In this document: positions 51,994 to 64,000 of the stretch, piece by piece | Layout of the letters: each line of letters starts with the position of its first letter | How positions within the stretch are numbered: position 1 is the first letter of the stretch | Assembly: GCF_004751985.1 (NCBI RefSeq) | Contig: NZ_CP038492.1 | Span: 1,550,001-1,614,000, forward strand | DNA: 64,000 bases | Source of the DNA: Rhodophyticola sp. CCM32 | GTDB taxonomy: Bacteria; Pseudomonadota; Alphaproteobacteria; Rhodobacterales; Rhodobacteraceae | Direction of reading: 5' to 3' | Program-made: the position numbers and the translations under genes | The notes under the pieces: model-generated | The model's database searches: none | Seen by the model: the letters and a program-made list of their open reading frames with translations, nothing else | What the model was told of the DNA's origin: nothing

Positions 51994-52427
51994 CACCGGG
52001 CCAAGCGCATGATCTGAACGGCATTGCGGAGCTTTTGACACGCATCCCGACCCCGCGCCGTCTCCTCGCAGACCGCGCCTACGACGCGCGGCGGTTGCGT
52101 GACTGGCTAAAGCGGTTTGCGTTTTAGATGAGGCAACCCCATCGAAAACCGCGTTCGAGCCGAAGGCGAGAGGCAGCGGTTTTCGATTCAGATCAAACGC
52201 AAACCGCCATCGCCGAACGCGGATGCGAATCTGTGATCCCGCCAAATCCCACGCGAAAACACCCACATTCCTATGACAGGCACGCGTATCGCGGGCGCAA
52301 TGTGGTTGAGCGCATGTTCTGTCGCCTCAAGGATTTCCGCAGAATAGCAACACGTTACGATAAGCGTGCCGATGTATTCCTGTCCGCAGTCTTTCTCGTA
52401 GCCGCAATCGTTTGGTGGACCAATTGA
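51900..52427 (+). pseudogene. IS5-family transposase, OrfB, split by a palindromic insertion
   Basis: The second frame reads AIGRSRGGRTTKIHAVTDEA..., carries LLADRAYDARRLRDWL (second catalytic Asp) and is then broken: the inserted element introduces a TAG at 52125-52127. After the insertion the original frame resumes (GCESVIPPNPTRK, YRGRNVVERMFCRLKDFRR with the catalytic Glu) to a stop at 52425-52427. The insertion is 102 bases, a multiple of three, but the internal stop inactivates the transposase. Confidence 0.8.
52112..52207. repeat. Palindromic mini-element, family B, inserted in a transposase gene
   Basis: Outer arms GCGGTTTGCGTTT (52112-52124) / AAACGCAAACCGC (52195-52207) are perfect, and nested inner arms ATCGAAAACCGC (52141-52152) / GCGGTTTTCGAT (52176-52187) are also perfect, so the whole element folds as one interrupted hairpin. 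Half copies occur at 49101-49155 and 51380-51399. Its presence inside a coding sequence shows that it moves. Confidence 0.85.
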
Positions 52428-52439
52428 GTCCTGACCCTA

Positions 52440-53602
52440 GTCACCTGGAACTGTAATTCGTATCATTGTTTGAACTGAGCTTCAGGAGGTGATGCGATGG
52501 TTGGACGGGTTGCGGATGCGGTGGTGCTGAGCGATGAAGAGCGCCGCTTTCTCGAAGGTCAGGTTCGGCAGCACAAGACGCCCCGGTCTTTGTCGGATCG
52601 CTGTCGGATGATCCTGTTGTGCGCCGAGGGGCTGCCCAGCAAGGAAGTGGCTGCACAGCTTGGCGTGCACGAGCACACGGTGGGCAAATGGCGCAGGCGT
52701 TTTGCACAGGATCGGATCGAAGGCCTCACCGACGAATACCGCCCCGGTCGCCCGCGCACGGTGTCGGATGAACAGGTGGCCGAGGTGATCGAGCGCACGC
52801 TGAACACCATGCCAAAGGACGCAACCCACTGGTCGATCCGCTCAATGGCTGCCGCGACGGGGCTGTCTCACACAACAATTCGGCGGATTTGGAACGCATT
52901 CGGGCTACAGCCACACCGCAGCGAGACTTTCAAACTCTCAACCGATCCGCTGTTCGTGGACAAGGTGCAGGATATTGTCGGGTTGTACCTGTCGCCGCCG
53001 AACCGGGCTATCGTGTTGTGCGTAGACGAGAAATCCCAGATTCAAGCGCTGGATCGGGAACAGCCGGTCCTGCCCATGGCGCCCGGCGTGGCTGAGCGGA
53101 GAACTCACACTTACATCCGCCACGGTACGACCTCGCTCTTTGCCGCTCTGGATATTGCCACCGGTGCCGTGATCGGAAAGTGCTACAAACGGCATCGTGC
53201 AACAGAGTTTCCGGACTTTCTCAAAAAGATCGACCGGCACGTGCCCGCAGGCCCCGACGTGCATATCGTCATGGACAATTATGCCACCCACAAGACGCCG
53301 AGGGTCAAGGCTTGGCTGGCGCGCCGCCCGCATTGGCACGTCCACTTCACGCCTACGTCAGCGTCATGGATCAACCAGGTGGACCGCTGGTTCGCCGAAT
53401 TGACCCGCAAGCAGCTACAGCGGGGCGTGCACCGATCAACCGTAGAGTTGGAGGCCGACATTGTGGCATTCATCGAGGCCCACAACGAGAACCCAACGCC
53501 GTACAAGTGGGTCAAATCCGCAGACGAAATCCTCGCATCCGTCAAACGGTTCTGCCAGCAAACTCAGCAAACCTTATGCCGCGAACTTTAGATACAGGTG
53601 AC
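52440..53602 (+). mobile_element. IS630-family insertion sequence
   Basis: Terminal repeats begin GTCACCTG (left) and, reversed, GTCACCTG (right), each bordered by TA (52438-52439 and 53603-53604), the TA target duplication of IS630. 1163 bp with one intact transposase gene. Both TA borders are shared with neighbouring IS5-type elements. Confidence 0.88.
52497..53591 (+). CDS. IS630-family transposase
   Basis: A 364-residue DDE transposase. The N-terminal helix-turn-helix region ([24 protein letters not shown]) is followed by the DDE domain with Asp in [15 protein letters not shown], Asp in [11 protein letters not shown] and Glu in [16 protein letters not shown]. Full length with an AGGAGGT ribosome site; probably active. 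Confidence 0.92.
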
Positions 53603-53614
53603 TAGGGCGTAGAC

Positions 53615-54050
53615 TCATAAGAACCAAATCACTGTAGCGGCGATGTGGGCGGCCGCGAGGAAGGTGTTGGGGCATCGGAATGTGCGCAGGCTGAGTTGTC
53701 GCCAGTCTTTCAGGCGATTGAACATGCGCTCTACGATATTGCGGGTTTTGTAGAGATCTGCGTCATATTCAAACTGCACCTTGCGGTTTTTGCGGGGCGG
53801 GATGCAGGCTGTTGCCTCTGCCTTGGTCAGCCAGTCACGCAGGTGATTGGCGTCATAGCCACGGTCCGCGATGACGGTGCAGCCTTTGGCGACATAGGGT
53901 TCAAGGCACTGGCGTGCTTGGGAAATATCGGCCCGATTTCCCGCAGTCAGCCCCAAGTGAACCGGGCAACCGCCACCGTCGCAAACCAGATGCAGCTTCG
54001 AATTCAGCCCGCCTTTGGTCTTGCCGATGCTCCGTCCGCCCGGGCTGTTT
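53615..54050 (-). CDS. IS5-family transposase, OrfB
   Basis: The second frame, entered by -1 slippage on seven consecutive A residues (T7 on the plus strand, 54048-54054). It contains HLGLTAGNRADISQARQ, VIADRGYDANHLRDWL (catalytic Asp) and NIVERMFNRLKDWRQLSLR (catalytic Glu), ending at 53615. The first internal ATG is at 53956, but independent translation is unlikely. Confidence 0.8.
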
Positions 54051-54378
54051 TTTTGACACCGTTCGCTGCGATCCGATGCGTTTTGACATGGCTCGCATCG
54101 ATCATGAGTGTCGACAGGTCGGCCGTCTCGCGCGCCAGCGCGTCAAAGACACGTTCGAAAACGCCTGCCTCGGACCAACGTTTCCAGCGGTTGTAGAGCG
54201 TCTTTGCCGGGCCATATTCGGGCGGCACATCGGACCAGCGATAGCCTCGCTGGATACAGAAAATGATCCCGGACAAGACACGACGATCATCCACCCGTGG
54301 CACGCCTCGGGGCTTGTTTGGCAGCAAAGGACTGATTTTATTGAACTGTTCTTCGGTGAGCCGGAAATTCGACGACAT
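54004..54378 (-). CDS. IS5-family transposase, OrfA
   Basis: A 124-residue first frame: FRLTEEQFNKISPLLP, RVDDRRVLSGIIFCIQRGYRWSDVP and the first catalytic Asp in LMIDASHVKTHR. It runs past the A7 slip site and ends in an unrelated tail. Fusion with OrfB by frameshifting makes the active transposase. Confidence 0.85.
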   Translation of the reverse strand: MSSNFRLTEEQFNKISPLLPNKPRGVPRVDDRRVLSGIIFCIQRGYRWSDVPPEYGPAKTLYNRWKRWSEAGVFERVFDALARETADLSTLMIDASHVKTHRIAANGVKKTARADGASARPKAG

Positions 54379-54435
54379 GAAACCTCCCAGATTTCACATC
54401 TTGAAGCACATCGCCATTTATAGGTCTACGCCCTA

Positions 54436-54811
54436 GGGTCAGGCCCCCTTAAATCCATGCCATCAGTTTGGCAGATTTTTTCGCGTGACGAGGCGCAGGG
54501 CTGCCGGAATAGAGCAGAAATCGTTTAATCTGAATCAAAATTCGCTGCCTTTCGATCAGCAAGCGCTGATCTCAAACGCGAATTTTGATGAGCGATGGTG
54601 CAGAATAAAACGATTTCGCTTTAGTGGTTCTATTTCAAAGGCCTGCAACGATGCTCACGCGGGACATCCGCCAAACCCGAAGGGCGCCGATTTCACATCA
54701 TCTCAGCGGCGTGCGCCGCTTGACCGTAGAACACCTATGGCCGGCGCGCCGCAAACCACTGATATGTCGTGAAATCGGCGCTGACGGTATGGATTTAAGG
54801 GGGCCTGACCC
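54436..54811. mobile_element. 376-bp non-autonomous element with 26-bp terminal inverted repeats
   Basis: The first and last 26 bases (54436-54461 and 54786-54811; beginning GGGTCAGGCCCCCTTAAATC) are inverted copies with one mismatch, flanked by TA on each side. The interior is strongly palindromic: AAATCGTTT/AAACGATTT, ATCAAAATTCGC/GCGAATTTTGAT (54534-54545, 54578-54589) and GCGCCGATTTCAC/GTGAAATCGGCGC (54684-54696, 54769-54781). No transposase is encoded; a 95-codon frame inside has no recognisable domain. Confidence 0.8.
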
Positions 54812-54826
54812 TAAAGCATCCGACTT

Positions 54827-54985
54827 TTAACTTGAGACATATCCGGCAGCCTTAAAGTAGTTCCAGCATTCGTCTGGCGTGTAGAGGTCACAGATTTCTG
54901 TGAGAGCGTGGAACGTGTCAGTGAAGGTTCGAGCGCCGATCCTGCGTAGGTGTGCTTTGAGTTTCGAGAACGCCATCTCAATTGA
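54827..54985 (-). pseudogene. IS630-type transposase, C-terminal remnant
   Basis: About 53 codons read IEMAFSKLKAHLRR..., then ALTEICDLYTPDECWNYF and a stop at 54827, the typical end of a different IS630-like DDE transposase (…NPIE-MAFSKLKA…). The upstream part is missing at the junction with the IS110-type element. Confidence 0.75.
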
Positions 54986-55062
54986 TGGTGTGGATGGCTC
55001 CTGCTCCCGGCGTCGCGATGCGCCATGATGGGGTGTCATTGTCCCAACTTGAGGAGCCATCC

Positions 55063-56262
55063 ATGAATGAAGTTAGCACAGTCGGCGTCGACCTCGCCAA
55101 GAATGTCATACAGATCCATGGCGTTGATTGCGACGGGAATGTTGTGGTTCGGCGTCAGCTGCGGAGAGGTCAGTTTCTCACGTTCTTCGAAGAGCGCCCA
55201 GCATGCCTGATCGGCATCGAGGCGTGTTCGGGATCCCATCACTGGGGACGACAACGACAAGAGATGGGCCACGCGGTCCGACTGATGCCGCCGTCCTATG
55301 TGAAGCCCTACGTCAAGCGGAACAAGACAGATGCGGCCGATGCGGAGGCAATCTGCGAAGCGGTCACCCGGCCTTCGATGCGGTTTGTTCCCGTGAAGAG
55401 CGAGGCGGACTCCGCGGCGCTTGTCCTGCACCGGGCGCGGGATTTTCTCGTCGGTCAGGTCACGCAAACCGGCAACGCGATCCGCGCTCACATGGCTGAG
55501 TTTGGTATCGTTACGGCGAAGGGATCAAAGCGCGTCGCGAGCCTGGCAGAGGAGTTGGACGCCTTGCCCGAGGCCGCGCGCCTTCCGCTCCGGGTGTTGT
55601 TCGATCAACTGGCAGAGACGCAATCGCGAATCGAGCAGCTGACCGACGAGATCAAGGAGGTTCACCGGCACAACGAAGTGAGCCGCCGTCTGGCATCGAT
55701 CCCAGGCGTCGGCGTGCTGACCGCAACCGCGATTGCCGCAACGACACCGGATGTCAGCAATTTCGGCTCGGCGCGGGACTATGCTGCCTGGCTCGGCCTG
55801 ACGCCGAAGCAGCACTCGACCGGCGGGAAGCCCCGAAGCGGTGGCATCTCGAAGATGGGCAACCGTTATATCCGGCGCCTGCTTTACCTTGGGGCCATGG
55901 CGCAGATCATGGTCCGGCGCAGAAGTCGCCACATGGGCACCGACTGGCTGTCGCGAAAGCTGGCGACAAAGGAGACAAGGGTCGTTGCGATCGCCTTGGC
56001 GATAGGCAAGTTGATTGAGATTGCTGGCAATCCGCGATTGCCCCAGCAGAGCCAATGCCTCAGCCGCTGCCTTCTTTTCCTCAACCTGATCCGCTGGACG
56101 GGTCTTTCTCAGCTTGGCATCCTCAGCAAAGACACAAGCCCGCACATAAGCACTGAGTGTCATGCCCGCCGCGAGCTCTTCCAACCGTGCCCGTTCATGG
56201 GGCGTCAGGCGCAGGGTGAGCGGCGACAATGTGGTACGCGCCTTTTGCTTGGACGCTTTTGA
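55063..56262 (+). CDS. IS110-family transposase, C-terminus replaced
   Basis: A 399-codon frame. Residues 1 to about 312 are an IS110 DEDD transposase: VSTVGVDLAKNVIQIHG (catalytic Asp), NKTDAADAEAICEA, and the C-terminal transposase_20 region RLASIPGVGVLTATAIAA and KPRSGGISKMGNRYIRRLL. After ETRVVAIALA (about base 55999) the normal short tail is lost and the frame continues antisense through a mobC fragment, adding about 88 meaningless residues. The first 312 residues hold the catalytic motifs, but element ends are not evident, so mobility is doubtful. Confidence 0.82.
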   Translation: MNEVSTVGVDLAKNVIQIHGVDCDGNVVVRRQLRRGQFLTFFEERPACLIGIEACSGSHHWGRQRQEMGHAVRLMPPSYVKPYVKRNKTDAADAEAICEAVTRPSMRFVPVKSEADSAALVLHRARDFLVGQVTQTGNAIRAHMAEFGIVTAKGSKRVASLAEELDALPEAARLPLRVLFDQLAETQSRIEQLTDEIKEVHRHNEVSRRLASIPGVGVLTATAIAATTPDVSNFGSARDYAAWLGLTPKQHSTGGKPRSGGISKMGNRYIRRLLYLGAMAQIMVRRRSRHMGTDWLSRKLATKETRVVAIALAIGKLIEIAGNPRLPQQSQCLSRCLLFLNLIRWTGLSQLGILSKDTSPHISTECHARRELFQPCPFMGRQAQGERRQCGTRLLLGRF

Positions 56263-56310
56263 GAACACAGGCGCGACGTTGGGATCTTTCGATGATGCAA
56301 GACGGGTCAT
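55998..56310 (-). pseudogene. mobC: Relaxosome protein MobC, 3'-truncated
   Basis: From ATG 56310 the minus strand encodes about 104 residues: TLSPLTLRLTPHERARLEEL, MTLSAYVRACVFAED (ribbon-helix-helix type) and LLGQSRIASNLNQLAY, typical of MobC accessory proteins of mobilisable plasmids. The frame then runs into the IS110 gene, so the C-terminus is lost. The relaxase is absent. It indicates that part of this region derives from a mobilisable plasmid or element. Confidence 0.75.
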
Positions 56311-56510
56311 GGCGCAGGCTCCTCAAATGAAGAAGCCAGCCCCGGATCGTCCTCACCTTGATCTGGAGCATCTTTCGCCGCCTCAGCAAACGCCGCCAAC
56401 CTGTGGATAACTTCCGGCTCAGTCCGAAGAATGCTTGTCCATTCCTCCAATTCTGTCAGGATCTGATCGCACTCAGAAGGTTCTAGGTTTGTCTTCTCCG
56501 GTGCACCATT
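56307..56510 (-). other. Short open frame coupled to mobC
   Basis: Minus-strand frame of 67 codons ending in ...SSFEEPAP with its TGA overlapping the mobC ATG (ATGA). It reads NLEPSECDQILTELEEWTS, RTEPEVIHRLAAF and so on, an acidic sequence I do not recognise. There is no ATG; TTG near 56455 is a possible start. The overlap suggests a real gene preceding mobC that has lost its 5' end at the recombinase junction. Confidence 0.4.
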
Positions 56511-56874
56511 TCACATTTTGATGTGAAATCCGCGAAAACTCAAACATTACAGATACTTGTGGAGTTCGAAGTCCGGTTTTTCGATCATACACCAAAGGCG
56601 CTTTGAAGGCCGTTTTCAGGATGGTTTTGCGCACGGTCAGTGAGCCGTTTTCATAGATATTCCAAGGGCTTGACAGGAAGTCGCGCAAAAGTTCGAACAC
56701 GTCGCCCATCTTTGCTTTTGGTTTCGATTCATGCGCCATTTTATCGTTCATCAGCAGCTTTTCCTCTTCCAGCGTTTCGATTTTTCCTTCAAGCGCCGCT
56801 ATGACCTTTGGGTTTGAGGTTTCGACCAACCGTTCGAGTAAGCCATCTTGTTGCTTGTCGAACGGTTGGCTCAA
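56473..56874 (-). pseudogene. Serine site-specific recombinase, C-terminal remnant
   Basis: About 130 codons: LLERLVETSNPKVIAALEGKI, then a coiled-coil-like EEEKLLMNDKMAH and DFLSSPWNIYENGSLTVRKTIL, the C-terminal region of large serine recombinases. The resolvase catalytic domain is absent, and a stop lies in frame just upstream (56887-56889). The only start is a TTG inside the domain. It is the probable relic of the enzyme that integrated or mobilised the island. Confidence 0.65.
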
Positions 56875-56894
56875 GCTCAGGTGGCGTCAATATC

Positions 56895-56975
56895 GATAGT
56901 TCAAAACTATCACGAATCCTAAAGAAATCATATTCTGGCCACACCGGTGCCAAACGCAGCGGAGAAACCGTCTCC
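56895..56975 (+). promoter_or_regulatory. Leader region of the Roadblock-GTPase operon
   Basis: Three palindromic features precede the Roadblock gene: GATAGTT-caa-AACTATC (56895-56911), CACCGGTG (56942-56949) and GGAGA-aaccg-TCTCC (56961-56975). They may be operators or leader hairpins. No clear sigma-70 hexamers can be assigned. Confidence 0.35.
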
Positions 56976-57006
56976 ACTGACACACATGAACTCTATGGAG
57001 ACTAAA

Positions 57007-57375
57007 ATGGCTAACTCTAGCAACACTGACCTCAGCCCGCTCGCAGATATCAGCGGATTCATCGCAGCATGCCTCGTCGATGGCGAATCCGGCCTCATGC
57101 TGGCGCAGCAGACGTCTGGAACGAAATTCGACATCGAAGCGGCCGGCGCGGCCAATACTGAAGTTGTCCGTGCCAAGAACGAAGCGATGGCAGCACTGGA
57201 CCTGAACGACTCAATTGAGGACATTCTCATTTCGCTCGGGACGCAACTGCATTTGATCCGTCCTTTGGAGTCAAATCCAATGGTGTTTGTCTATGTCGCG
57301 TTGGATCGCAAGAAGGCGAATCTTGGCATGGCGCGTATGACTGTGAAGAAAGTCGAAGGCGAACTGAAAGTCTGA
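57007..57375 (+). CDS. Roadblock/LC7-family protein
   Basis: A 122-residue single-domain protein with the Roadblock/LC7 pattern: beta hairpin ISGFIAACLVDGESGLMLAQ (15-34), helix DIEAAGAANTEVVRAKNEAMAAL (42-64), strands SIEDILISLGTQLHLIRPL (69-87) and PMVFVYVALDR (91-101), and helix KANLGMARMTVKKVE (103-117). In MglB and relatives this fold dimerises and serves as a GAP or platform for small GTPases. It stands directly before four GTPase genes on the same strand, so it is probably their regulator. GGAG seven bases upstream supports ATG 57007 over one at 56986. Confidence 0.82.
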   Translation: MANSSNTDLSPLADISGFIAACLVDGESGLMLAQQTSGTKFDIEAAGAANTEVVRAKNEAMAALDLNDSIEDILISLGTQLHLIRPLESNPMVFVYVALDRKKANLGMARMTVKKVEGELKV

Positions 57376-57387
57376 TGCACTTTCCCT

Positions 57388-57424
57388 TGTGACACGCTCC
57401 GTTGGGAACATCGGGCGTGTCACA
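57388..57424 (+). terminator. Hairpin between the Roadblock gene and the first GTPase gene
   Basis: TGTGACACGC (57388-57397) and GCGTGTCACA (57415-57424) are a perfect 10-bp inverted repeat with a 17-base loop, 13 bases after the Roadblock stop. There is no T-run. It could attenuate read-through so that the small protein exceeds the GTPases, or be an operator. Confidence 0.55.
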
Positions 57425-57487
57425 GTTGCGCCAACGATCTCATCTGAACAGCCACCGAGAAGGTGGATTGAGTAGAAGGGCCGTCAA

Positions 57488-59449
57488 ATGTCGGATCGAC
57501 TAGATTTTATGAAACAGTACCGCGATGGCTTCGAAAAGTTGAATGCCTTCTGGGAAGAGCTTGATACAATCGAAGAAGCCATCAATCGCTTCGCCGGGGA
57601 CGCACTTTCCTTCGCCCAAGATCCACTTGAAGACGTATTGGACGGCATTAACGCGTTCGAGCCATCAGTAAGTGTCATCGGACAAATTAAGGCCGGCAAG
57701 AGCACCCTCTTGAACGCCATTATCGGCAAAGAGGACTTGTTGCCCTCAGATGTGAATCCCTGGACCTCCGTTATCACAGCACTCCATCTCAACAACCGCA
57801 ACCAGCCCCCGAATGCCAAGGCCGTCTTCCAGTTTTTCGATCAGGACGAATGGGATCGATTGGTTGCGACAGGCGGCCGGCTTGGCCAGATGGCGGAGCG
57901 CGCCGGTTTCGAAGGCGAAGCCGACGAAGTCCGCGAGCAAATTGCCGAAATGAAGCGATCGACGCAAGAACGGCTAGGAGATGAGTTTCATCAGCTTCTA
58001 GGCAGCTCTCGCGCCTTCCCGACCTTGGATAAAGACACAATCGACCGCTACATTTGCTACGGTGATGTCGATGAAGTCGAGGCGGGGTCAACCGAAGGGG
58101 TCTATGCAGACATCACCAAGACCGCAGATCTCTACTTGAATCTTCCGCATCTGCCCAAGGGATTGTGTGTACGCGATACGCCCGGAGTGAACGATACGTT
58201 CATGATGCGCGAGCAGATTACCTTAAACGCGATCAGCGATAGTCGCGTTTGCGTTGTCGTTCTTTCCGCGCACCAAGCCCTTTCCAACATGGACCTAGCT
58301 CTGCTCAGGATCATTTGCAGTATCGACGCCCGCGAAGTGCTTATCTTTGTAAACCGCATCGATGAACTGGAGGATCCGGCTACGGAGCAGGAGAACATCG
58401 AGAAATCCATCAAGGCCACCTTGAACCGCCTTGGTATCGGAAGCGGCATCGAAATCATTTTCGGATCAGGGTATTGGGCGAACTTTGCCAATTCGGACAA
58501 GGTACAGATGCTTCCCGCCAGCCGGGCGGCCCTAGCCAAGTTGTACAACGGCGACACCGAAGACCTAGAAGAATTGCGCCAACGGGCCATGGTCTCCTCG
58601 GGCATCGTGCGCTTGCTAGAAGCCATTTCTATCCGTGTGGTTGAAGGCCCCGGCCGTGCCTTTCTCAACGACATCCGCAAGGAGCTCAACTCGATGATCG
58701 AGATGAGTGAGACCGTCGAAAATATAGGGGTCAAAAGCCCTCTAAGCTTATCCAATATCAAGATGACGTCCGAGGAGATGTCACGACAAGTCGCAAATAT
58801 CCGTGACAAGAGCCTGAGCAATTTTGACGCCAAAGCCAACGAACTGCAGGCGGGCTTGCGCGAACGTCTAGAACGCGCGCAAGAAGCTTTCGTCGAATCC
58901 GCTCTACTTGCCTTGCAATCGCACTTGGAACTATCGAGCGAGGTTGGGTCATGGTCGCACGACCCGAGCAGTCTGCGGATGATGATGAAGACCGGTTACA
59001 CCTCGTATTGTGCGAAACTGCGCCGCGTCGGCGAAACCGCCTTCGACGATGTCCTTGATGGTATTCAGGACATCCTGGAGAACGATTTGGGCGTATTCCG
59101 CGAAGGAGATTCCATCGAATTCCCGGAACAGGCACAGCACAAACCTCCGACGGTCATTGCACGAACCATGACCCTTGATCTGCAGGGTTCGTGGTGGCGA
59201 AAATACTGGCGCATCGGGCGAAAGAGCGCAGCTGAAAAGCGTTACAGAACAGTCATCGAGGCAGAGACCAATCCACTTATCGAGGACCTCATTTCCAGTT
59301 TTTTCGAGCCGACCGTGCAACGTACTCGCGCCATCGTAGAGGAGTTTTCCGACCAACAAGGCGCCTTCTGCCATGCGATTGTAGAACACTTCGATCGCAA
59401 CCGCTCGGAAAGTGAAGAACGAGCATCACAACGGAGGCTTTCGGCATGA
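57488..59449 (+). CDS. Dynamin-like GTPase, long type, copy 1
   Basis: A 653-residue dynamin-superfamily GTPase. G1 is GQIKAGKST (65-73), the G2/switch I region LLPSDVNPWTSVIT (84-97), G3 DTPG (230-233) and G4 NRID (289-292). Long helical segments follow (about 380-560), then a tryptophan/basic patch SWWRKYWR around 568-575 that could be a membrane-contacting tip, then more helix. There is no signal peptide. It is closely related in layout and motifs to the 60729 gene. Its stop overlaps the next start by ATGA. Bacterial dynamin-like proteins tubulate or fuse membranes after GTP-driven assembly; that this one does so is inferred from the family. Confidence 0.85.
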   Translation: MSDRLDFMKQYRDGFEKLNAFWEELDTIEEAINRFAGDALSFAQDPLEDVLDGINAFEPSVSVIGQIKAGKSTLLNAIIGKEDLLPSDVNPWTSVITALHLNNRNQPPNAKAVFQFFDQDEWDRLVATGGRLGQMAERAGFEGEADEVREQIAEMKRSTQERLGDEFHQLLGSSRAFPTLDKDTIDRYICYGDVDEVEAGSTEGVYADITKTADLYLNLPHLPKGLCVRDTPGVNDTFMMREQITLNAISDSRVCVVVLSAHQALSNMDLALLRIICSIDAREVLIFVNRIDELEDPATEQENIEKSIKATLNRLGIGSGIEIIFGSGYWANFANSDKVQMLPASRAALAKLYNGDTEDLEELRQRAMVSSGIVRLLEAISIRVVEGPGRAFLNDIRKELNSMIEMSETVENIGVKSPLSLSNIKMTSEEMSRQVANIRDKSLSNFDAKANELQAGLRERLERAQEAFVESALLALQSHLELSSEVGSWSHDPSSLRMMMKTGYTSYCAKLRRVGETAFDDVLDGIQDILENDLGVFREGDSIEFPEQAQHKPPTVIARTMTLDLQGSWWRKYWRIGRKSAAEKRYRTVIEAETNPLIEDLISSFFEPTVQRTRAIVEEFSDQQGAFCHAIVEHFDRNRSESEERASQRRLSA

Positions 59450-60732
59450 AACGCTACAAGCAAGACCAACGTCCTACAGTGGTTGCAATCGCGAAAAGTG
59501 TTTCGGATGAAGAGGCGGAAGTCAGCTCCGGGCGCCGCAAGCCCAGGATTTTGATTGCCGGAGAATTCAGTGCAGGCAAGACTCGCCTGATTACGGGATT
59601 GCTGCATGATGACGTTCTGCCATCGAACGTGACCGCGACGGCGTTGCCGCCGGTTTGGATCGTTGGCGGAGCGCCCGCCATGGCGGCGGTCACGCTGTCC
59701 AACACTGTGAAAGCGATCAAGTCCTATGACGAGGTTTCGTTGAAGGACACCCGCTTCATCATCGTGTCGCACCCAGCGGAGATCTTGAAGGCGATCGATA
59801 TCATCGACACCCCAGGAAGCTCCGACCCCAATATCTCGACCGAAAGCTGGGAAGAGATGCTAAGCTACGCCGACAGCGTCATTTGGTGCACCAATGCGAC
59901 GCAGGCCTGGCGACAAAGCGAAAAAGCCTTCTGGAAGGAGCTACCAGACCAACTTGTCGGTGACGCGACGCTTCTGGTGACCCATGCGGACCGAATGCCG
60001 GACACACAGATGGCCGACCGTGTCCTTCGACGGGTCCAGCGCGAGGCGAGGCCTTTCTTCAGCACGTTCAAGATGGCTGCATTGATCGACCCACGCGATG
60101 TTGCCGGCGTCTCCGAGATGGTGATCAGGGATATCGCGCCGAGGGCGGGGCAACTGGGCCAAAGCAACGCGATGGTCGCATCCTTTGCGGCGAAACAGGA
60201 GAAAGCTGCTGACGACCAGGGACTTCGCGGTCAATCCCAGCCAGCTATCATTCCGCGTCGCGTAAAGCCATTTGATAAATCCTGTAGTCTACAGTTCCCG
60301 GACAAGCGTGACACCGTAGGTCAAATCGAAGATGATCCAACACCTGCAAAGGACGACGAATTCAATGCGGAATCGGGTGCTGACGAAGCCCTCAATGACG
60401 TTGCGCACTCAAAGGACGACAAGAAAATGCGTCCGGAGGCAGAGTTCAGCTTGCCTGCTGAGGACGCTCCTCCACTTTTCGATGATGTGGAGTCAGAGGA
60501 CACACAGCAGAGGACGGTGCCTTCGTTGTCTGCAAAGGAACTCTGGCGACGTGTCTTGAAGGACATCGACCGTTCAGACCCGGAAGCGATCCTGGGCGGT
60601 GTGGACATTCTCATCTCTTATGTCGAGCAACAAGCCCATGCCGGACCAAAGCATGTGCTCCAGGAGAACACTGACAATAGCGAACAGGGCGAACTCTTGA
60701 CCATTCGCGAATTCATGGAGGCCGAAGCATGA
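59446..60732 (+). CDS. Short dynamin-like GTPase with acidic tail, copy 1
   Basis: A 428-residue GTPase: G1 GEFSAGKT (39-46), G2 LPSNVTATALPP, G3 DTPG (121-124), G4 THAD (179-182). The segment SVIWCTNATQAWRQSEKAF (144-162) matches IFIWVTIASQAWRLTEKSI in the 62876 gene, showing that the two short GTPases are paralogues. Residues about 270-370 are acidic and probably disordered, followed by a helical end (ELWRRVLKDIDRSDPEAIL, TIREFMEAEA). No long stalk is present, so it may work as partner of a long dynamin-like protein. It overlaps both neighbours by four bases. Confidence 0.8.
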   Translation: MKRYKQDQRPTVVAIAKSVSDEEAEVSSGRRKPRILIAGEFSAGKTRLITGLLHDDVLPSNVTATALPPVWIVGGAPAMAAVTLSNTVKAIKSYDEVSLKDTRFIIVSHPAEILKAIDIIDTPGSSDPNISTESWEEMLSYADSVIWCTNATQAWRQSEKAFWKELPDQLVGDATLLVTHADRMPDTQMADRVLRRVQREARPFFSTFKMAALIDPRDVAGVSEMVIRDIAPRAGQLGQSNAMVASFAAKQEKAADDQGLRGQSQPAIIPRRVKPFDKSCSLQFPDKRDTVGQIEDDPTPAKDDEFNAESGADEALNDVAHSKDDKKMRPEAEFSLPAEDAPPLFDDVESEDTQQRTVPSLSAKELWRRVLKDIDRSDPEAILGGVDILISYVEQQAHAGPKHVLQENTDNSEQGELLTIREFMEAEA

Positions 60733-62852
60733 AAATCGCACCACAACTCAAATCCGAACTTGATTTCTTGCAAGATGCACTCGGTCAAATCGACAAAACG
60801 GTTGATCGGAAGGCACGTGGGAATTTCAGGGAAATCCAAACTGCACTCAACGATTGGGCCGTGAAGGTCGCCGTTATCGGTCAGGTCAAGGCCGGCAAAT
60901 CTACATTCCTCAATGCGTTTCTTCGACAGGACAATCTGCTGCCCTCGGATGTGAACCCCTGGACCTCTGTGGTCACGAATATTCGCATCAATATCCCGGG
61001 CGATCCCATTGCAGGTGCAAGGTTCGATTTCTTCGATGAAAACGACTGGCAAGAGATCGTTGATGGCGGGTCGCGCATCCGTAAGCTGACCGAGCAGCTT
61101 TTGCCCGGCTTCGACACAGAGCTTTTACGCAAACAATCGGAAACCATGAAGGCGCAAGCAAAGCAGCGCCTCGGTTCGCACTACGAAACCCTTCTGGGCA
61201 AAAGCCACGAATATGATTTCCTGACGCCCGATCTGCTGCAGCGCTATGTTTGCGCCGGTCCGGCTGACGATGAAAAATCCGATAAATCAGCGTTGGGGCG
61301 CTACGCGACCCTGACGAAGGTAGCAAATGCAAGCATGCGTATGCCCGAGTTTCAGGTTCCCACAATTGTCACCGACACGCCGGGTGTGAACGACCCGTTT
61401 CTCGTGCGCGACGAGTTCACCTGTCGCAGCCTCGATAACTCGGACGTCTTTATCGTCGCGCTTTCAGCGCACCAGCCATTGACGGATGTCGACATCGCCC
61501 TCATCCGGATTCTTGCCAAGCAGGACAACAAGGATGTTCTTGTCTTCCTCAACCGGATCGATGAACTGGACGACTACAGTGTCGAAGTTCCGCGAGTTGT
61601 TGCCGATGTTGAACATCGTCTGCGGCTTGCCATCCCCAACATAGACTTCGCCGTCGTCGTCGGCAGTGCATTCATGGCGAACATTGCGATGCGTGTTGAT
61701 GACGAAGCCGCAATGTTGCGCGATACGCTCGATACCCCGGAATTGTCCGAATACCTGCAGAGGAAATATTCGCACGTTCCCAAGAACCCGATTGACCGAC
61801 TGTTGCTTGGTTCCGGGCTCGACGACGTCCGAACTGCCCTGTCCCGCGTAATCGACAATGGCGTCGGCCGCGGCCAGCTTGCCAAGATTCTCGGTGACGT
61901 TCGGGCAGAGATCAGTGCAACCCAATTTGTGACAAAGCAAGAGAGGCTTTCGATCCATAGTCAGGTCGAAAGCATCCAAGGCACCGTGGCGGAGGCCGCT
62001 GCAAACGAGATTGCCGGTGAAATCGGCAAGCTTTCGGAGATCCAATCCCGGATCAGCGAATTGGTCGACAACGCCGAAGAGCAGATAGAATCCCTGGTCT
62101 CGAAATCGTGGTCGAAGCTGGAAACCAAGTTGGTCGAGCAGGTTCAGACGTTCCTGGGAAAGCAAGACAGTCTCGTCGATGATCGAGTGCTTCGTACAAG
62201 CCTCTCCAGCGACAAGCCAAGGCCACTGGAAATCGATCTGGGTCCGCTTCAGCGCATTATCGAAACAGATGTGACCAGGGCCTTCGAAAAATCACGGGCC
62301 ACGACGGATGTCACGTTGAACAATTGTCTGCACGCCTGCCGGAACCTCATCAGTGATACATTCGACGAATCCGTTGCGGACATTGATCTCAGCGGCATCC
62401 CATTCGATGATTTCGCATCTACCGTACTGCTCGTAAAGAAGAAAATCACTTTGGAAGTCGTCATGGATCGCGGCTGGAAGTTCTGGGCCAGAGATGCAAC
62501 ACCGAACTGGCCCAAAACAATCGCCGCACTTCGGACCATTGCCACTGAAGAAATGCACCAGCCAATTCAAAAGGTTCTGCTGGCCTTCAACGATGCCCAG
62601 GTTGAGCGTGCCAGCGCCGGCATGTCGCGCATTCGGGTTATGCTGAGAATGGTAGATGCGGCGATCAGCGACGAGACCCACCGCCTCAAGCGGGATCGGA
62701 CCGCCTTGGCAAAGCTTGCCGGAGACCCAGAAGAACAGAGGGCAATGGCGCATAGGTTGCAAAGCAAGATCAACATTCTCGACCGACGCATGGTAAACTT
62801 GTCCGCTCTTGAAGCCGGGTTACAGAAGCCAGACCTTTCGAGCGCCGCGTAA
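60729..62852 (+). CDS. Dynamin-like GTPase, long type, copy 2
   Basis: A 707-residue dynamin-superfamily GTPase: G1 GQVKAGKST (51-59), LLPSDVNPWTSVVT (70-83), G3 DTPG (216-219) and G4 NRID (275-278). The stalk region (about 370-560) is helical with strong coiled-coil character (EIQSRISELVDNAEEQIESL). A GWKFWARD patch near 582-589 occupies the same place as the tryptophan patch of copy 1. The shared G2 sequence and spacing show that the two long proteins arose by duplication, but they have diverged widely elsewhere. ATGA overlap with the preceding gene; 23 bases to the next. Confidence 0.85.
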   Translation: MKIAPQLKSELDFLQDALGQIDKTVDRKARGNFREIQTALNDWAVKVAVIGQVKAGKSTFLNAFLRQDNLLPSDVNPWTSVVTNIRINIPGDPIAGARFDFFDENDWQEIVDGGSRIRKLTEQLLPGFDTELLRKQSETMKAQAKQRLGSHYETLLGKSHEYDFLTPDLLQRYVCAGPADDEKSDKSALGRYATLTKVANASMRMPEFQVPTIVTDTPGVNDPFLVRDEFTCRSLDNSDVFIVALSAHQPLTDVDIALIRILAKQDNKDVLVFLNRIDELDDYSVEVPRVVADVEHRLRLAIPNIDFAVVVGSAFMANIAMRVDDEAAMLRDTLDTPELSEYLQRKYSHVPKNPIDRLLLGSGLDDVRTALSRVIDNGVGRGQLAKILGDVRAEISATQFVTKQERLSIHSQVESIQGTVAEAAANEIAGEIGKLSEIQSRISELVDNAEEQIESLVSKSWSKLETKLVEQVQTFLGKQDSLVDDRVLRTSLSSDKPRPLEIDLGPLQRIIETDVTRAFEKSRATTDVTLNNCLHACRNLISDTFDESVADIDLSGIPFDDFASTVLLVKKKITLEVVMDRGWKFWARDATPNWPKTIAALRTIATEEMHQPIQKVLLAFNDAQVERASAGMSRIRVMLRMVDAAISDETHRLKRDRTALAKLAGDPEEQRAMAHRLQSKINILDRRMVNLSALEAGLQKPDLSSAA

Positions 62853-62875
62853 GGGCAGAATGGGAAGACCGAGAC

Positions 62876-64000
62876 ATGTTAGACTGCCATGAACAGAATA
62901 CTCATTCGCAACAAGGGTCGCGCGTTCTTCGTGTCGCTGTGTGCGGCGAAGTTCGGTCCGGTAAATCGGCTTTGCTCAATGCGCTTTTCAGCACAAACCT
63001 GTTGAACGACAATATGGGGCAGGTTCAACGGCCGACGATCTACGCCGAGTGGGGCGAAGAAACTATGGTGGAATATTACGATGCCATGGGCAACAGCGTT
63101 GATGTGAAAGCAGCAAAGAGCCGCGCGCAATCCTGCATCGCCGAAAGTGCCAAGGCTATGTTCGTTTGCCCTGCGATTTCCAGGTTCGAGTTTGTTGAGG
63201 TTCCGCTCTCGAACGCCGAGGACTTGTCGGAAGAGCACAAGGCTCTTGTCCAGTCGTCCGATATCTTCATATGGGTAACGATCGCGTCGCAGGCATGGCG
63301 CCTAACAGAGAAATCAATCTTTGATGCGCTCAGTGCCTCCCGACCAAAGGACTGCATTCTCGTTGTTTCCCGAGCCGATAAATTGCGTCGGAGAGACGAC
63401 CTTCTCAAAATCCGAGACCGAATGGAGCGCGAAACGAGACGCTCTTTCCAGCGTATTCTATTCATGTCGAACTCCCGCCAGAACGTAGAAGCCAAAGGCC
63501 CAAAAAACGATGCGTGGACGGATTCGGGCGCAGATGCTCTAGCAATGGAACTCAATGAAATCGCAGACCGCATTGCTCTCATACGTTCCGAAAACGAAGC
63601 TGCTGTATTGCCCAATACTATTCCTCGCGATTCATTCGAACTCACAAAGCACATGCCCACAGAAGCGACCCCCGTTCAAATTGGGTCGGATGGGATAATT
63701 TTCGGCTCCTGCGATACCGCTAACGGTGCTTCTTGCATTTCCATATTGGGAGACGACGCAGAGTGCCGAAGGCTTGGAGAGGTCAGTCGAATTCTTGCTG
63801 CCAGCTGGCTCCAGAATTGGTCGATAGAGGAAAAGTCCGAGACACTCAACGTTGAGATGGTCCTAAAAACCGCGACTCACAGCATCCACATTCAGCTCAG
63901 ATCTGACGGGCAGATTCTATTCATGTGTGCTATTCTGTCAGGGCTCAACCATGGGATGGCGTACAAGAGATTCTCTGAATTGTGCTCGTCCGTTGTATAA
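62876..64000 (+). CDS. Short GTPase fused to a Roadblock-like domain, copy 2
   Basis: A 374-residue protein complete at the window edge. G1 is GEVRSGKS (24-31) and G4 SRAD (165-168), but the G3 DxxG is missing: the equivalent strand reads FEFVEVPLSNAED (105-115), so hydrolysis may be impaired. Residues about 272-374 match the Roadblock pattern of the 57007 protein: beta hairpin GIIFGSCDTANGASCISILG, helix ECRRLGEVSRILAASWLQ, strand VEMVLKTATHSIHIQ (compare IEDILISLGTQLHLI), strand GQILFMCAIL and helix HGMAYKRFSEL. The fusion ties the Roadblock protein to this GTPase set. The operon may continue beyond base 64000. Confidence 0.75.
   Translation: MLDCHEQNTHSQQGSRVLRVAVCGEVRSGKSALLNALFSTNLLNDNMGQVQRPTIYAEWGEETMVEYYDAMGNSVDVKAAKSRAQSCIAESAKAMFVCPAISRFEFVEVPLSNAEDLSEEHKALVQSSDIFIWVTIASQAWRLTEKSIFDALSASRPKDCILVVSRADKLRRRDDLLKIRDRMERETRRSFQRILFMSNSRQNVEAKGPKNDAWTDSGADALAMELNEIADRIALIRSENEAAVLPNTIPRDSFELTKHMPTEATPVQIGSDGIIFGSCDTANGASCISILGDDAECRRLGEVSRILAASWLQNWSIEEKSETLNVEMVLKTATHSIHIQLRSDGQILFMCAILSGLNHGMAYKRFSELCSSVV

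Follow-up and report, generated by a model that had tools for sequence, protein, structure and literature searches.

A Roadblock protein encoded with four dynamin-family GTPases: a candidate membrane-remodelling module of Rhodophyticola sp. CCM32

The activation of bacterial dynamins is, to our knowledge, largely an open question, and it is raised in compact form by a gene cluster at the end of the window, the whole stretch of 64,000 nucleotides of Rhodophyticola sp. CCM32 DNA that was analysed. Between 57007 and 64000, five ORFs follow one another on the + strand in the order RB, DLP1, GTP1, DLP2 and GTP2, and the features of this segment are as follows.

57007..57375, + strand: RB, protein of predicted Roadblock/LC7 fold, 122 aa
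57388..57424, + strand: stem-loop between RB and DLP1, MFE -26.2, z -3.47, without a T-run
57488..59449, + strand: DLP1, BDLP/mitofusin-type dynamin-like protein, 653 aa, G1/G3/G4 intact
59446..60732, + strand: GTP1, short dynamin-family GTPase, 428 aa, DTPG intact, linker long and variable
60729..62852, + strand: DLP2, BDLP/mitofusin-type dynamin-like protein, 707 aa, G1/G3/G4 intact
62876..64000, + strand: GTP2, short GTPase, 374 aa, P-loop present, no DxxG at the G3 position
63698..63994, + strand: putative Roadblock-like C-terminal domain of GTP2 (residues 275-373), from predicted secondary structure and profiles

The tight junctions that a sequence-only reading of this DNA had reported for the five same-strand genes are there, namely ATGA overlaps between DLP1 and GTP1 and between GTP1 and DLP2, and a gap of 23 bases between DLP2 and GTP2; 112 bases separate RB from DLP1. 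Its list of five genes stands but is incomplete: directly past the window edge, downstream of GTP2 (a complete ORF, the stop codon of which is the window's last codon), lies a sixth small gene that is present in 10 of the 13 loci read. All four GTPases match Dynamin_N in Pfam above the cut-off of 27 bits (DLP1 59.1, GTP1 36.8, DLP2 50.1 and GTP2 29.7 bits), and their Pfam and NCBIfam rows contain no Ras/MglA family, save for the generic small_GTP below its cut-off. The description as four dynamin-like GTPases needs sharpening, since the set consists of two long DLPs and two short GTPases, of which one lacks the G3 motif.

The order RB-DLP1-GTP1-DLP2-GTP2 is kept, between unrelated flanks, in 12 of the 13 loci read (seven genera within the order that was sampled are represented, plus two named genomes), a shared neighbourhood rather than a scatter of homologues; the 13th locus has the four GTPases only. 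RB is missing from the L050 locus and from its relative on a Rhodobacter plasmid, and in L043 a stop falls inside the RB frame. When the RB and dynamin lists for the 390 sampled genomes were compared by eye, every RB-bearing genome had the dynamin family (27/27, against 132/390 overall; hypergeometric p 3e-14), as did every RB-bearing genus (13/13 vs 49/139; p 4e-7); among the 132 genomes with the dynamin family, 105 gave no match to RB. Pairwise identities, taken over nine of the 13 loci and with shared descent not removed, are correlated between DLP1 and DLP2 (r 0.93) and between RB and DLP1 or DLP2 (r 0.73 and 0.75, respectively). The identities of GTP2 are weakly correlated with those of the other module proteins (r 0.27-0.31).

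The sequence-only reading stood or fell with the Roadblock fold of the small protein, and structure prediction returned this fold with confidence (pLDDT 91), the closest solved structures being MglB and Ragulator. It was structure prediction that led RB to be accepted as a Roadblock protein, because it settled what sequence searches had left blank or marginal: nothing in Pfam matches RB itself at E<=0.1, so that it stays short of the PF03259 cut-off, only two of 29 relatives match PF03259 at E<=1 (best E 0.011, which is marginal) and no Roadblock protein was found among PDB sequences. RB belongs to a diverged family, with the Roadblock fold in its predicted structure. Its link with GTPases is strengthened by natural fusions: in 35 of the 120 longer RB proteins listed (of 596 found), RB is fused to a short GTPase and is C-terminal in all 35, and two of these fusion proteins, P0262 and P0265, are G3-less like GTP2; RB is also fused to short GTPases in the loci L097 and L098. 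RB-type domains also occur on kinases and response regulators, with a Ser/Thr kinase domain in 35/120 of the listed proteins and DUF4388 in 34/120 (30 of the 34 with a receiver domain), and of the 33 RB genes, 11 stand alone at a distance from any DLP (eight of the 11 were inspected); RB therefore also has roles beyond the module.

The two long proteins look like a dynamin couple with intact G-domain motifs. GQ(V/I)K(A/S)GKS, DTPG and N-R-x-D are present in 13/13 of each, DLP1s and DLP2s form two separate clades (support 100/100 each), and the nearest solved relatives of both by sequence are BDLP (2j68), the dynamin pair 5owv and Fzo1. Their long C-terminal halves contain invariant Trp in 10/10 aligned proteins, with a conserved WWxxxW segment in DLP1 (residues 569-574) and invariant W583, F585 and W586 in DLP2. 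Such aromatic-rich segments in the helical half of both proteins are what would be expected of membrane-inserting tips. No obvious transmembrane helix is apparent in either DLP (best 19-residue hydropathy 1.8).

The short GTPases differ from each other in a way that the sequence-only reading had overlooked, along with a second Roadblock-like part at the C-terminus of GTP2. GTP1 has DTPG in 13/13 loci, while GTP2 has the P-loop in 13/13 and lacks DxxG at the G3 position in 13/13; although G3-less, it probably binds GTP, and it may be a mere scaffold. The best structural matches of GTP2 are IniA, BDLP and mitofusin, with Rag lower. Its C-terminus has the predicted secondary-structure order EE-H-EEE-H, and when a profile of 24 GTP2 C-termini was run against 785 proteins, RB proteins were the top non-self matches (E 2.5e-6). 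Without L050, the E-value was 5.1e-4, with 22 RB rows (some of them near-copies) before the first decoy at 0.3, and RB was absent from the top four in a reversed control. One profile comparison of RB and GTP2, with a low-diversity RB profile, gave a probability of 9.9%, and a broader comparison gave 59%. GTP2 is therefore predicted to end in a diverged Roadblock-like domain, homologous to RB. This assignment rests on the predicted topology, the profiles and the two-domain Foldseek rows, because VIA-align, which returned no Rag or Roadblock row among 50 for GTP2, tested chiefly the N-terminal domain. In Foldseek, GTP2 aligned with RagA/RagC (6s6a_B) over 382 columns (E 2.6e-7, rmsd 18.5).

On balance, we favour an accessory, horizontally moved membrane-remodelling module, in which a BDLP/mitofusin-type dynamin pair is gated by a GTPase switch built on Roadblock domains. 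In the mechanism that we infer (RB dimerisation, contacts, order of events and membrane action alike), DLP1 and DLP2 would be the executing pair, a heterotypic couple, while RB, probably as a dimer, would form the control switch with the motif-complete GTP1 and the G3-less GTP2 with its own Roadblock-like domain. The Roadblock domains would join GTP1 to GTP2, as those at the C-termini of Rag/Gtr GTPases do or as an MglB dimer grips MglA, and the nucleotide state of GTP1/GTP2 would license the dynamin pair to assemble on the membrane. Possible inputs come from sister loci, which have additional kinase/FHA/PP2C genes or else PAS (LOV-like) proteins. A more tentative extension, which we hold to be somewhat doubtful, would make the module a bacterial counterpart of Rag-Ragulator: active GTP1 and G3-less GTP2 would pair via Roadblock domains, free in some loci and fused in others, and the two heterotypic dynamins would be gated by this heterodimer. 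Depending on lineage, kinases, PAS/LOV proteins or response regulators would feed into the Roadblock part.

Parts of this arrangement have precedents. Like MglA-MglB and the conservon pair CvnD-CvnB, the module encodes a dedicated Roadblock protein with GTPases, and the RB model is nearest to MglB; its partners, however, are Dynamin_N GTPases rather than Ras-like MglA, and unlike conservons it has paired long DLPs and no histidine kinase/CvnC. The word 'dynamin' is absent from the text of a survey of prokaryotic Ras-like GTPases (PMC4316618). With the heterotypic bacterial dynamin pairs the module shares two DLP genes per operon, Dynamin_N and a BDLP-type sequence relation, but it adds two short GTPases and the Roadblock parts. 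The pairs compared are Campylobacter DLP1/DLP2 and LeoABC, alongside Nostoc BDLP. GTP2 and the GTP1::RB fusions resemble Rag/Gtr in having an N-terminal GTPase followed by a C-terminal Roadblock, whereas the G domain of GTP2 appears nearer to IniA/BDLP/mitofusin than to Rag and the domain arrangement differs, as the high rmsd indicates; the likeness is probably convergent. A Roadblock switch combined with two small and two dynamin-like GTPases was not found described in the open-access literature searched, to which our claim of novelty is limited. The interest of this compact conserved unit is that it links a pair of dynamins with a GTPase switch built from Roadblock parts, resembling the GTPase-plus-Roadblock switches that act on membranes of our own cells, and natural fusions name likely partners, so that regulator-to-dynamin coupling becomes approachable with five or six genes. 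If true, it would also mean that bacteria evolved, independently of the MglA family, a eukaryotic-looking layout in which a GTPase with a Roadblock domain works on membranes.

The genomic setting bears on what else the cluster could be. GC content is 0.52-0.55 in 2-kb windows over 56-64 kb vs 0.58-0.66 in the others, in line with the lower-GC segment first proposed, and the module lies among IS elements on an island at a tRNA-Ser site. Of the relics reported beside it, the plasmid one was recovered (a NikA-like mobilisation fragment) and the recombinase one was not confirmed, having no Pfam match. No tRNA-derived attachment repeat was found in the window, and the sequence that adjoins this tRNA in two congeners had no match in the genome of Rhodophyticola sp. 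CCM32 itself, in a search without a positive control. The surrounding IS elements could suggest separate genes that share an island without joint function, but the order kept in 12/13 loci over several genera, the ATGA overlaps, the fusions and the co-occurrence in genomes make such a chance or selfish neighbourhood highly improbable. Patchy distribution, low GC and the tRNA-Ser island would also suit anti-phage or membrane-damage defence, in which the DLP pair would seal or sacrifice membranes after attack; DynA of B. subtilis confers phage resistance (PMC8844932). The module GTPases match the PADLOC LeoA/LeoBC models, weakly, partially and short of full length (best E 1.9e-9, 35 bits). However, the 77 flanking proteins scanned (of 95 listed) give no specific signal: 11 PADLOC families were matched at E<=1e-6, and when 10 likely sources were checked, all five mad3/mad8 matches and those of the AriA, AbiLi, PtuA and Toprim types led to five ABC-type ATPases and the CARF-model matches to one protein of L009; a single Csa3-model protein is also among the matches, its source lying outside those traced. 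ABC transporters are the commonest Pfam families in the flanks, RB has no match in 50,697 phage records, and its identity of 65-89% between loci (nine loci) would be slow for an arms-race part. There is no positive evidence for a defence role, which we regard as quite unlikely, and this part of the proposal of a Roadblock-controlled multi-GTPase machine found no support, while the predicted fold and the shared neighbourhood agreed with it and the RB-GTPase fusions strengthen the link between its Roadblock and GTPase parts.

A signalling switch, in which dynamin-family GTPases and RB would respond to GTP or to a partner and bind a target that is not part of the cluster, is unlikely too, if less so than defence. 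Its model is RdcA/RdcB (YjdA/YjcZ) of E. coli, where, according to PMC6510439, a soluble dynamin-like GTPase shares one operon with a small partner and acts through the diguanylate cyclase DgcE; that system has a single GTPase, and the word 'Roadblock' is absent from the paper. The kinase, DUF4388 and receiver domains on longer RB proteins and the lack of a visible transmembrane segment in the DLPs agree with such a role, but the flanks of the loci share no signalling output gene, and both DLPs resemble BDLP and the 5owv pair in sequence and have the aromatic-rich segments that would fit membrane-inserting tips.

A scan of 56500-58000 found no consensus promoter or terminator, and for the window copy the idea that RB is followed by an intrinsic terminator was given up, the T-run being absent. 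The stem-loop after RB is not universal by z (L045 +0.7, L043 -1.6); it reaches z <= -3 in seven of 11 loci, with a sequence that differs between them, and is a possible RNA-stabilising or stoichiometry-setting element.

The last 7 kb of the window carry five genes, all on the + strand, encoding a Roadblock/LC7-fold protein (RB), two long dynamin-like proteins (DLP1 and DLP2) and two short GTPases (GTP1 and GTP2):

57007-57375, + strand, RB open reading frame
57488-59449, + strand, DLP1 open reading frame
59446-60732, + strand, GTP1 open reading frame
60729-62852, + strand, DLP2 open reading frame
62876-64000, + strand, GTP2 open reading frame, its end coinciding exactly with the window end

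Two junctions are ATGA overlaps and one is a 23-base gap, all four GTPases exceed the Pfam Dynamin_N cut-off, and the GC content of the segment (0.52-0.55) is below that of the rest of the window. The sequence-only reading of these genes as one system is supported by gene order conserved across genomes. With DLP2 as query, matches at E<=1e-10 were found in 132 of 390 genomes of the order, and those spanning most or all of its length with at least 44% identity came from 11 genomes in seven genera, own included. Thirteen loci were read, from these 11 genomes, Rhodobacterales bacterium HKCCE2091 and Tropicibacter naphthalenivorans, and 12 of them, from several genera, display RB-DLP1-GTP1-DLP2-GTP2 on a single strand. 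The RB frame of one locus (L043) contains a stop codon, and the thirteenth (L050) has the four GTPases only, with no RB match. A related copy of the latter, with DNA about 79% identical, lies on a plasmid (860 kb) of Rhodobacter sp. CZR27; it likewise has no RB match, and its four genes are annotated as dynamin family proteins. Same-genus pairs aside, the flanks have little in common: transporter-like paralogues (24-41% identity) and one other family (52-75%), that of the sixth gene described below. In a tree of 47 sequences, DLP1s and DLP2s form two clades, each with support 100/100.

In the 12 five-gene loci, the 69-133 bases between the RB stop codon and the next gene are predicted to fold into a stable stem whose sequence varies; of the 11 non-copy loci, 7 reach z <= -3, compared with 16% of 222 other same-strand gaps. 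The window's own hairpin (57388-57424, z -3.47) has no T-run; such hairpins may stabilise the RNA or set stoichiometry.

The G3 motif DTPG is present in 13/13 DLP1, 13/13 DLP2 and 13/13 GTP1 (11 of the last by script, two from translations). In GTP2 this position reads E-[VIL]-[PA] in all 13 and the P-loop is retained in as many; among 67 GTP2 relatives, DxPG is absent from the searched stretch in 62 and the P-loop retained in 66. Residues 275-373 of GTP2 are predicted to form an EE-H-EEE-H arrangement (whole-protein model, pLDDT 81.5, pTM 0.63). A profile of this C-terminus, built from 24 sequences with RB left out and searched against 785 proteins, had RB proteins as its best non-self matches (E 2.5e-6; first unrelated protein 0.18). 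Without L050 the value was 5.1e-4, and a decoy first appeared (at 0.3) after 22 RB rows, some of them near-copies; with reversed sequences as a control, no RB was among the top four. Profile-profile comparison gave 59% probability, or 9.9% with a narrower RB alignment. Foldseek pairs GTP2 with RagA/RagC across both domains (382 columns, E 2.6e-7); however, the domain placement differs (rmsd 18.5) and GTP2 scores higher against dynamin-family G domains.

RB itself was found at 33 places in 27 of the 390 genomes: 10 five-gene loci, nine three-gene loci in which RB neighbours a DLP (L097 and L098 being GTP1::RB fusions), three kinase-length frames and 11 solo genes, eight of these inspected (G076, G240 and G033 left out). 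Two of the kinase-length frames were read and encode a Ser/Thr kinase that ends in RB as its C-terminal domain (L104:8353-9813; L105:9180-10658), and the third, in G155, was inferred from frame length. The dynamin family is present in 27/27 RB genomes versus 132/390 overall (p 3e-14) and, by genus, in 13/13 versus 49/139 (p 4e-7), relatedness not being fully removed from either comparison; 105 of the 132 dynamin-family genomes have no RB match. At class level, 3 of 289 genomes, own included, match the RB profile. A search for longer RB proteins found 596, and among the 120 matches listed, counted by hand, 35 carry Dynamin_N, 35 a protein kinase, 34 DUF4388 (30 also with a receiver domain), three TPR and 13 no named domain. 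RB is the C-terminal part in all 35 listed GTPase fusions; DxPG is present in 32, two (P0262, P0265) are G3-less like GTP2 and P0211 is ambiguous. The matches listed also place RB-type domains in other phyla and architectures (Labilithrix, Acidobacteriota). Solo RB genes in one genus (L092, L093, L094, L107) lie in fixed order between MgsA-type AAA ATPase and CrcB/pseudouridine synthase genes, that of L101 precedes a response regulator-histidine kinase pair, and L106 is a further locus with a solo RB gene.

The arrangement in the eight three-gene loci read (L091, L096-L100, L102, L103) is essentially DLP-GTP1-RB. In five (L091, L096, L099, L100, L102), RB is directly followed by a ~180 aa PAS protein (L091:11796-12338, PAS_9 by Pfam) with a GxNCRFxQ motif, which we take to be LOV-like, hinting at light or redox input. 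A wider Rhodobacterales family (L055-L057, L059, L060, L114, L115; variants L052-L054) comprises, not completely in each locus, genes for a kinase, FHA, PP2C, a GTPase, a DLP and GTP1, together with a Roadblock-like protein that has diverged and a protein of ~275 aa without Pfam match; L058 has a DLP and a GTPase only. Five of 10 of the small proteins found there weakly match the RB profile (E 0.0035-0.047; profile probability 80%). The genome to which L104 belongs (G171) contains an FHA-PP2C-GTPase-DLP cluster as well (L060), next to which no kinase was called.

Most likely, RB and the GTP2 Roadblock domain would together make up a dimeric platform carrying GTP1, and the GTP state of GTP1 would license DLP1/DLP2 assembly on the membrane. 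The analysis establishes the component proteins, their fusions and their co-occurrence in genomes; contacts, direction of control and membrane effect are put forward as a model. Since the closest PDB sequence relatives of DLP1 and DLP2 are BDLP and the 5owv bacterial dynamin pair, analogy supports a role in tethering or fusion/fission. Roadblock proteins alongside small GTPases are treated in PMC4316618, which does not contain the word 'dynamin', and RdcA/RdcB in PMC6510439; further papers in the field are PMC6104087, PMC8844932, PMC11016934 and PMC10933270. No Roadblock-dynamin system was found in the open-access papers searched. Judged by its sequences, the module is real, conserved and absent from the literature searched, joining two known kinds, a dynamin pair and a putative Roadblock-GTPase switch.

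Stacked transposase remnants (DDE, IS4/5 and IS110 types) lie 5' of the module at 52128-56310, where a NikA-like mobilisation fragment overlaps the IS110 gene on the opposite strand. On its 3' side, beyond the window, are HTH and DDE transposase pieces and a tRNA-Ser (GGA) gene (L008:11845-11934, L008 being the own-genome stretch that continues past the window). In the stretches compared, DNA similarity between the own genome and two of three congeners (G373, G296) reaches the tRNA-Ser end and goes no further, and DLP2 has no match in any of the three, so the module is probably borne on an island at this tRNA. The far border of the island was not found, either as a tRNA-derived repeat in the window or by comparing congener tRNA-side DNA with the own genome. 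The own genome, G373 and G296 differ in their DNA beyond tRNA-Ser, so this may be a hotspot for insertions.

A sixth gene, encoding about 90-112 aa that in most copies include a W-G-P-W motif, lies 3' of GTP2 in 10 of the 13 loci, in reversed orientation in L047; the own copy is just beyond the window end (L008:10120-10416, about G000:C1:1614119-1614415). It has no Pfam match; two relatives weakly match the phage family phrog_9174, of unknown function (best E 9e-7), whereas the own copy does not. The gene also adjoins twin solo RB genes in L095.
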